From Umbelopsis ramanniana AG (Eukaryota; Mucoromycota; Umbelopsidomycetes; Umbelopsidales; Umbelopsidaceae), in contig NW_026252099.1 in NCBI RefSeq assembly GCF_025399195.1, positions 248,001-312,000 of the forward strand: DNA of 64,000 nucleotides. The letters run 5' to 3'. Shown here one piece after another: positions 32,748 through 34,220 of this stretch. A program made the position numbers and the translations under genes. Each line of letters starts with the position of its first letter. The stretch's first letter is position 1. Below the pieces are notes generated by a model. It was not told the DNA's origin, did not search any database, and saw nothing but the letters and a program-made list of their open reading frames with translations.

Positions 32748-33776
32748 CTAGGGCAAGTTCAAAAACTCAATTTGCTTTGAGTCTGCTGCAAACGTCTGCT
32801 CGCCGTTCCAGTCTAATAAATCATCTAATCGGATTTCCACATTTTGATCCGGCACTTTAGAGTGCAGTGGTGTCAACAATTGAAGAGTTTCAGGAGGTGA
32901 CAAATGGTCGATTAGAGTATCATCTGAAGACAATGAAAGAGCTGGTGACATAGCAGTGTCGAGGGTAGCGTTATCAACGCAAAGGAAGTCTTGTGCAAAA
33001 GCACTGGATTCTTGCTTAACAGTCTCCGCTGCAGGGAAAGGATCCATACAAAGAGACATACATTTGAATGAAGAACGTTTGCAAAGAGGGATATGAGTGG
33101 TAGTCCATTGGGTGGTGGAATCAATCGTGGTGGTGAGAAGTCTGTACAAGATTGGGTTGTCCATTTGCAAAATGATAGGTTCGATTTCATTCAAACGCAG
33201 TAACTTTGGGGTGTCCTCAACGCGACCCGTGCTGAGTCGCGAAAACCGCCAAGTAAGAATTCAGTGATATTGTTAAACCTGAGTTGATCTTGCACCTGAG
33301 AAAGTTGAGTGACAAACATACGCAGTTGCGCAGAAAGCACCTCATTTTCAGTTTCTACAGTTTGAAGTCGTTTGTTTAATTCTTCATTTTTTTCTTTGAG
33401 TTGTTGATTGTCGTTTTCCAAATTGGAGATATAACGTCGTTTTCTATCTCTGGAGTCTTGAGCGGCTGCTCGATTGCGTAAAATTCTTTTTGCGTTGTAG
33501 TCAGTATATGAAGGCTTAGAGTCGTATACAAAGTATGTGAGGAAAAAATATTCACCTTTCTTTCTGTTTTTGGTCTTTGTCCTCTAGAGTATGCTTTCTC
33601 TTCTTTGGATTGATATGCTCCGAAGGACAGTCGCTAGACGGACTAGCAGCGTTAACAGCTGAAATGTCCTGGCTGTGGACACTGTCTGAAGAAGCATCAC
33701 TAACTTGGTCAGCGGCAAATGAAGCAGCATCAATGAAAGCAGTAGTTGAAACTTGGGGCTTTGTTAAAAGAGACAT
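32748..33776 (-). CDS. HAC1: HAC1/XBP1-like bZIP regulator with IRE1-type intron
   Basis: Proposed mature form: exon 33776-33556, ordinary intron 33555-33486, exon 33485-33232, non-spliceosomal 200-nt intron 33231-33032, exon 33031-32748; 252 aa. Residues ~55-75 are Lys/Arg-rich (NPKKRKHTLEDKDQKQKER) and lead into the basic region RILRNRAAAQDSRDRKRR, close to HAC1/XBP1. A zipper follows (LENDNQQLKEKNEELNKRL). The mature C-terminus is acidic with VEIRLDDLLDWNG, a likely activation domain. Without removal of the 200-nt segment, translation runs to a TGA at 33191 and gives a 171-aa form lacking that domain. The splice returns the frame exactly (GACTCAG|CAGCGG). The ATG at 33776 is the first in frame; upstream the frame is open only from a TTG. 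This gene should drive the unfolded protein response. The orthology call rests on the basic region plus RNA architecture. Confidence 0.82.
33023..33039 (-). promoter_or_regulatory. 3' IRE1-type splice-site hairpin in HAC1-like mRNA
   Basis: On the minus strand a 5-bp stem (UUUCC with GGAGA, one U-G pair) closes the 7-nt loop CUGCAGC. This fits CNG|CNGN fully and, as I recall it, equals the 3' loop of animal XBP1. Cleavage after CUG (33032) restores the reading frame. Confidence 0.8.
33104..33123 (-). promoter_or_regulatory. intronic arm of 20-bp leader-intron duplex
   Basis: Exact reverse complement of 33788-33807, lying between the two splice hairpins. Excision of the intron would remove this arm and free the leader. 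Confidence 0.85.
33221..33241 (-). promoter_or_regulatory. 5' IRE1-type splice-site hairpin in HAC1-like mRNA
   Basis: On the minus strand a 7-bp stem (CGCGACU pairing with GGUCGCG, one U-G pair) closes a 7-nt loop CAGCACG. Cleavage after CAG (position 33232) is the proposed exon boundary. The loop keeps C1 and G3 of the CNG|NNGN consensus but has C rather than G at position 6. Confidence 0.7.
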
Positions 33777-34220
33777 TTTTTCTTGTATGATTCCACCACC
33801 CAATGGAGAATCTTGTATGAACGTAGTCTTCTAAAGAAGAAAACCCCAATGGTGAGGGAAGTTTTTGGACTTTATCAGCATTCGGACCACCAATCAGATA
33901 CGTTCACGTTTTTCTGCCAAGCCATTTTCTTTCCCCCTAACCCAAGCATTGGGGGCTGCGGTAGAGTCGGCCCGTGCTGCTCACAGACCATTTTACCTGC
34001 CATTTTGCATGATACAGTGGAAGGGAAGGACATCGCTCTATACAGCTTGGCCATGAAATTGATTAAAATCTTTGATAGGAAATAATATTTGGTAATATTT
34101 CATCAATGGTAAAGAAGTAAATCTACATATTTTATTCTGCGCTAGCGCTGACAGTTGGTTTTCCTTTTGAATTTAAAATGTTATAGTTAGTCAAGATATG
34201 GCGATATACCAGAGGTTCAA
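33777..34220. other. HAC1-like 5' region
   Basis: Contains the HAC1-like leader (with the pairing arm) and its promoter. A plus-strand frame at 33783-34085 overlaps the leader and has no motif. CCAATGG sequences occur at 33800 and 33849; they may be CCAAT elements, but the first is part of the pairing arm. Confidence 0.4.
33788..33807 (-). promoter_or_regulatory. 5'UTR arm of 20-bp leader-intron duplex
   Basis: The leader RNA UCCAUUGGGUGGUGGAAUCA ends 11 nt before the AUG at 33776. It is perfectly complementary over 20 nt to the mRNA segment encoded at 33104-33123, inside the proposed 200-nt intron. In yeast HAC1 a comparable leader-intron pairing blocks translation until splicing. Confidence 0.85.

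Follow-up and report, generated by a model that had tools for sequence, protein, structure and literature searches.

Among the long introns removed by IRE1 is that of HAC1 in Saccharomyces cerevisiae, which measures 252 nt, and 11 bp between this intron and positions -22 to -32 of the leader have been reported to suffice for translational repression (PMC8881652). IRE1 of the same yeast is reported to be specific for CNG^(C/A)NGN, with the caret marking the cut here and throughout, so that G is needed at loop position 6 (PMC8104961). The HAC1 introns of Kluyveromyces lactis and Hansenula polymorpha, at 297 and 177 nt, are predicted to pair with the leader as well (PMC6116095, PMC10608004). Shorter introns are reported for hacA of Aspergillus niger (20 nt), in which an inverted repeat of the leader, together with an alternative start site, is described as blocking translation (PMC6627864), and for metazoan XBP1 (20-26 bases; PMC8881652). 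Here we describe a minus-strand bZIP gene of Umbelopsis ramanniana AG that carries a 200-nt segment (33231-33032) with a potential IRE1-type hairpin at each end. Going by its sequence, we consider it highly likely that this is a HAC1/XBP1 gene and that the segment is an IRE1-type intron doubling as a translational attenuator.

All coordinates refer to the window, the 64,000-nt stretch of DNA that was analysed, and all features of the gene lie on its minus strand. Exon 1 (33556..33776) opens with the AUG at 33776-33774, and its N-terminal frame is kept in the related protein P0001. It is followed, within the bZIP coding region, by intron 1 (33486..33555), an ordinary 70-nt GT-AG spliceosomal intron placed by the frame and by the relatives P0003, P0004, P0025, P0027 and P0029. 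Exon 2 (33232..33485), delimited by frame and by Pfam, holds the remaining bZIP domain up to DS^A, and then come the proposed 200-nt IRE1-type intron (33032..33231), put forward on the basis of the frames, a hairpin scan and an enumeration of possible introns, and exon 3 (32748..33031). The latter encodes an acidic C-terminal tail of 94 aa with its stop TAG at 32750-32748, in a frame that is kept in nine environmental ORFs. The 200-nt segment starts with CACGGG and finishes with TCCCTG; the claim in the original prediction that it has no GT-AG borders is exact to the letter, and GC-AG borders are absent too. Its length is 2 mod 3, in agreement with the offset that had been stated between the bZIP and acidic frames, and the exact joining of these frames on its removal (GAC TCA G^CA GCG GAG) was reproduced on the sequence. 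Read without splicing, the frame gives a protein of 171 aa that ends in FRDSARVALRTPQSYCV at a TGA (33193-33191) inside the segment, while taking out the 200 nt gives a protein of 252 aa with the junction FRDSA^AETVKQESS and an acidic tail ending in IRLDDLLDWNGEQTF. The locus would resemble S. cerevisiae HAC1 in that a long IRE1-type intron with an in-frame stop sits towards the 3' part of the bZIP gene, and in the exchange of tails on splicing. It differs in belonging to the Mucoromycota, not the Saccharomycetes, and in the length of its acidic tail, which is 94 aa in comparison to the 18 aa reported for yeast (PMC5114014).

The bZIP part matches both Pfam bZIP_1 and bZIP_2 (E=1.1e-8 each), and the closest named proteins are those of Umbelopsis vinacea (94% identical in the alignment) and U. 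isabellina. Relatives of the bZIP protein come from Umbelopsis and the Mucorales and include a HacA model from Rhizophagus; Penicillium hacA (P0014) appeared as a weak match of the first protein search (E=2.9e-4). From these matches the gene appears to be a bZIP regulator related to HAC1/hacA, and it would share the bZIP HAC1 family with Aspergillus hacA and HAC1 of other filamentous fungi. Three further matches in the same genome (26, 50 and 34% identity, E from 1e-6 to 3e-5) were considered as HAC1 paralogues and taken to be other bZIP genes. To the 5' side of the gene there is an upstream ORF of 16 codons (33881-33831, MLIKSKNFPHHWGFLL and a stop), which would matter only if transcription begins upstream of it. 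The single Rfam match, SNORD22 at 34040-34111, is sub-threshold (16.9 bits against a gathering score of 50, E=2.4) and was treated as chance.

Both ends of the segment lie in sequences that can form hairpins, as originally described, with each predicted cut after the third base of a 7-nt loop. The 5' hairpin, CGCGACU[CAG^CACG]GGUCGCG (33221..33241), has a 7-bp stem and is predicted to be cut between 33232 and 33231, and the 3' hairpin, UUUCC[CUG^CAGC]GGAGA (33023..33039), has a 5-bp stem and a predicted cut between 33032 and 33031. As had been noted, the 3' loop fits the consensus CNG^CNGN in full and the 5' loop departs from it only at position 6, where it has C; in this the 5' loop is unlike S. 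cerevisiae HAC1. The 3' loop CUG^CAGC is presumably the same as that of metazoan XBP1, a system which combines paired IRE1 hairpins with a frame switch, as predicted for this locus, and which is not known to have a leader-intron attenuator. On both strands of the 64 kb there are four CNGCNGN 7-nt loops on stems of at least 5 bp and three CNGCNHN loops on stems of at least 6 bp, and the two that flank the 200-nt segment, one from each class, share a strand and stand in the correct order. The hairpin pair at the segment ends is more than chance. The 3' hairpin alone has a folding energy of -2.2 kcal/mol, compared with -14.1 for a competing local stem. Whole-message folding varies with the assumed 3' end and was kept out of the main evidence; in such folds the 3' hairpin has a probability of about 0.01 or less, and the outermost three pairs of the 5' stem have probabilities of 0.04-0.15, or of 0.4-1.0 with a shorter 3' end.

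In the comparison of orthologues, for which relatives were read solely via their proteins and codons, both sites are kept at the level of sequence. At the 5' site, 95 proteins were collected, of which 86 have the bZIP motif and 73 of these reach the site; the 13 without it include P0067 (a frame-shifted model), Rhizopus P0011, the Mortierella-type P0088-P0093 and Penicillium hacA P0014. SAR is found at the site in 65 of the 73, and because its codons (TCN GCN, then CGN or AGR) bar G at loop position 6, the deviation is a property of the lineage. The residues flanking SAR mostly covary, with CD..IA in 47 proteins, RD..VA in seven and other combinations in 11 (one of them CD..VA). A two-frame reading in Apophysomyces ossiformis gives TGCGAT TCAGCACGG ATCGCG, with the loop unchanged and one C-G pair replaced by U-A, on the assumption that this species reads DGFCDSARIA as its congener P0037 does. 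In terms of formal HAC1 class, one defining feature, the base at position 6 of the 5' loop, is thus different here, and as far as the sequences indicate this deviation is common to the lineage. The eight proteins without SAR are P0044 and P0085, which carry the spliced junction, and six from Glomus, Rhizophagus or similar (four with SAV and two with SAA). These six (P0077, P0080-P0082, P0084 and P0087) would have G at position 6, and with it the full consensus loop, if theirs is the same site; among them is P0082, a Mucoromycota bZIP relative from Rhizophagus irregularis named HacA by its source, which reads RGSAV at the matching place. The Mortierella-type P0088-P0093, one of which is named Lobosporangium, have GVGFCQ in place of the GFCDSAR of the Mucorales, and any 5' IRE1 site that they possess must therefore have another form.

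At the 3' site, the nine environmental ORFs were retrieved with the frame that crosses from the intron to exon 3, and PFPAAET is invariant in all ten aligned sequences (these nine and the window), with the intron-encoded sequence before it not kept as protein. PFP lies inside the intron and its invariance is therefore not accounted for by the spliced protein. The residues PAA, encoded as CCN GCN GCN, force the loop CNGCNGC, and the adjacent codons give most of the stem.

The strongest feature of the locus, which is absent from the original prediction, is a complement between the leader and the intron. Over 20 nt the leader element (33807-33788) is the exact reverse complement of an intron element (33123-33104), which occupies nt 109-128 of the intron and lies 72 nt from the 3' cut. 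The longest complementary run in 1000 dinucleotide shuffles of the 100-nt leader and the intron was 11, reached three times, and with the coding sequence after splicing the leader shares no complementary run longer than 8. In the 22.8-Mb genome the 18-mer core has two exact copies, both at this gene; with up to three mismatches it has 19 sites (two exact, one with two mismatches and 16 with three), in comparison to seven for a reversed control pattern. The energy of the leader-intron duplex is -55.1 against a shuffle mean of -36.8 (SD 4.6), and since the lowest of the 1000 shuffles lies at -55.5, with at least one equalling the observed value, this is a weaker test than the length of the complement. 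Pairing of leader and intron is predicted at 0.69-0.99 for five assumed 3' ends (32748-32660) and at 0 for two (32640 and 32600), and the leader element also folds on itself, in a local fold that persists after splicing with a mean pairing of 0.72. The complement exceeds the 11-nt minimum set for a yeast-type attenuator and, as in S. cerevisiae HAC1, its leader arm is just 5' of the AUG, at -31 to -12 where the core reported for yeast is at -22 to -32 (PMC8881652), although it is a perfect complement of 20 nt and the yeast core has 11 bp. K. lactis and H. polymorpha HAC1 likewise have long leader-pairing introns, but both are budding yeasts, and K. lactis is reported to pair at -52 to -28 (PMC6116095, PMC10608004). 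The 200-nt intron is most likely also a yeast-type translational attenuator.

Both arms have left traces in relatives. On the intron side these are seen in six of the nine environmental ORFs (P0016-P0019, P0021 and P0023), the remaining three (P0020, P0022 and P0024) beginning too far downstream to show the element. P0018 holds STTQW, which the window reads in the same way from UCC ACC ACC CAA UGG, and P0016, P0017, P0019, P0021 and P0023 begin with MD, which fits the AUGGAY closing the element and comes 22-28 codons ahead of PFP. In the window the AUGGAC of the element and CCUUUC are spaced by 67 nt, while in P0016 and P0017 the distance is made up of whole codons; as 67 nt are not whole codons, the reading frame is not kept between relatives. 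The A. ossiformis model P0067 reads through the intron, which would there be 155 nt and likewise 2 mod 3, and PPPNG, which it has 16 residues ahead of PFPAAE, represents the element read in a different frame. MD and PPPNG are short matches, the sequences of Umbelopsis type are not mutually independent, and P0067 shows the intron side alone. On the leader side, P0004 begins with LGGGIKFI-M, which fits UUG GGU GGU GGA AUH, eight codons before M (nine in the window), and P0003 begins with VESSKNFYK-M, a weak fit to GUG GAA UC in another frame. Pattern scans for the DNA of the relatives gave 55 matches in genome contigs and four in viral contigs, none of which was confirmed.

It is unlikely, in our estimation, that the segment is an IRE1-type intron whose leader complement is due to chance, or is an inverted repeat derived from a repeat, with no effect on translation. 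The leader element does lie within an inverted repeat of its own (33812-33789) that is flanked by direct copies of TCATACAAGA at 33820-33811 and 33790-33781, which could be the mark of a small duplication, and its status as leader is putative, hanging on the transcript start. The failure of the predicted pairing for two of the seven assumed 3' ends, and the sighting of one intron-side trace (P0067) and no more in the Mucorales, would also be in keeping with such an origin. However, chance would have to explain a run of 20 nt where 1000 shuffles gave 11 at most, an element directly before the AUG whose partner is wholly within the intron, the lack of a third copy in the genome and the traces that each arm has left in relatives despite divergence in the rest of their intron.

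The junctions in the relatives bear on how the segment is removed. P0003, P0004 and P0025 are continuous across the position of intron 1, which makes an origin from spliced transcripts probable, and all three end in the unspliced tail, while P0027 and P0029 begin inside intron 1. Two models, P0044 from Mucor lusitanicus and P0085 from Hesseltinella vesiculosa, show the predicted IRE1 junction, CDSA^AEV, and P0033, also from M. lusitanicus, continues unspliced as CDSARIAKKECLIE. An enumeration over the examined stretch, performed on the DNA of the window, gave 36 frame-restoring GT/GC-AG introns, 24 of them GT-AG, and none of the 36 gives the junction DSAAE. Eight models have both the bZIP and the acidic-tail motifs, and six of these (P0002, P0008, P0011, P0034, P0040 and P0067, from the Umbelopsidales and Mucorales) reach the acidic tail via other junctions or read-through and are probably mis-annotated.

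We regard it as improbable that the segment is bridged instead by a 176-nt spliceosomal GT-AG intron (33204-33029, ending in CCCTGCAG^CG), in which case the switch, if any, would be ordinary regulated splicing. Such an intron brings the frames together as ALRTPQ^TETVK, a junction of this kind occurs in P0002, the model from U. isabellina (ALRIPQLSAT^SETAK), and CCUUUCCCUGCAG, which is conserved, would act as a polypyrimidine tract with its AG acceptor, an alternative reason for keeping the PFP-A part. Against this, the probable transcript-derived sequences P0003, P0004 and P0025 have lost intron 1 and still have the unspliced tail, which in P0004 starts as that of P0002 does. The 176-nt intron would moreover take out the intron element too, and it leaves unaccounted for the 5' hairpin, the invariant A-E-T past the acceptor and the DSA^AE of P0044 and P0085. 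The 47-nt GT-AG intron (33278-33232) named in the original prediction as the alternative does restore the frame, as one of the 24 GT-AG options rather than the sole one, and leaves the 200-nt segment open and coding in the acidic frame, but it is scarcely credible, as it deletes FNNITEFLLGGFRDSA, which is kept in frame in Umbelopsis-type relatives and partly in the Mucorales, the intron-coded peptide is not kept, and the 67-nt spacing against whole codons in P0016 and P0017 implies that no frame is.

An IRE1-type intron calls for its enzymes, and a locus for an IRE1-type RNase is present in the genome, with the prokaryotic controls silent. A kinase adjoins it, and among proteins of solved structure its best match is yeast IRE1 (E=3.7e-85; 1.1e-21 for the RNase part); Pfam gave no match on the candidate luminal IRE1 ORFs. 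A Trl1-type RNA-ligase domain is also present (L021, G000 C22:202887-203686), and RtcB was not found in a genome search that detected nine of 14 controls. The Trl1 kinase and CPD domains had no Pfam match in the genome, in a search that detected no control either, and in the ligase gene L021 these parts are possibly split or divergent. IRE1 and an RNA ligase, which a HAC1 system requires, thus occur in the same genome. Together with the relatives and the two Mucorales models that share the junction, they back the HAC1/XBP1-like identity of the gene and the long IRE1-type intron that had been proposed for it, and the earlier interpretation is supported overall.

With the 200-nt segment as an IRE1-type intron and attenuator, the gene would be regulated as follows. 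In the unstressed cell the spliceosome would take out intron 1 and the 200-nt intron would be retained, its nt 109-128 forming a 20-nt duplex with the leader segment that lies 12-31 nt ahead of the AUG and so hindering ribosome scanning, and any leaky product would be the 171-aa bZIP protein, which lacks the acidic tail. When ER stress sets in, IRE1 would cut both loops and the Trl1-type ligase would join the exons; splicing would take away the pairing partner of the leader and shift the frame, giving the 252-aa activator. The steps of cleavage, ligation, translation block and stress induction are ones that we infer, and a mode of working like that of yeast HAC1 is well supported.

Titles and abstracts among the matches listed in the open-access literature contain no description of a HAC1 intron in the Mucoromycota. 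We see evenly balanced prospects for a wider evolutionary reading, in which a long self-attenuating HAC1 intron goes back at least to the common ancestor that the Umbelopsidales share with the Mucorales, the leader-intron block either is an old device of fungi that disappeared where introns were reduced to about 20 nt or was invented twice, and the 5' loop code of the lineage has shifted to CNG^CNCG, a shift that implies a co-adapted IRE1. The 20-nt leader-intron complement in the Mucoromycota, with its trace in the Mucorales, makes the choice between ancestral and repeated origin directly testable. A 5' loop that occurs naturally throughout the lineage and departs from the accepted motif at a base that S. 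cerevisiae IRE1 is reported to require (PMC8104961) may be useful to IRE1 biochemists, and several public gene models of this HAC1-like regulator appear to be truncated or joined elsewhere. Overall, a soil mould only distantly related to baker's yeast seems to silence its protein-folding stress regulator much as yeast does.
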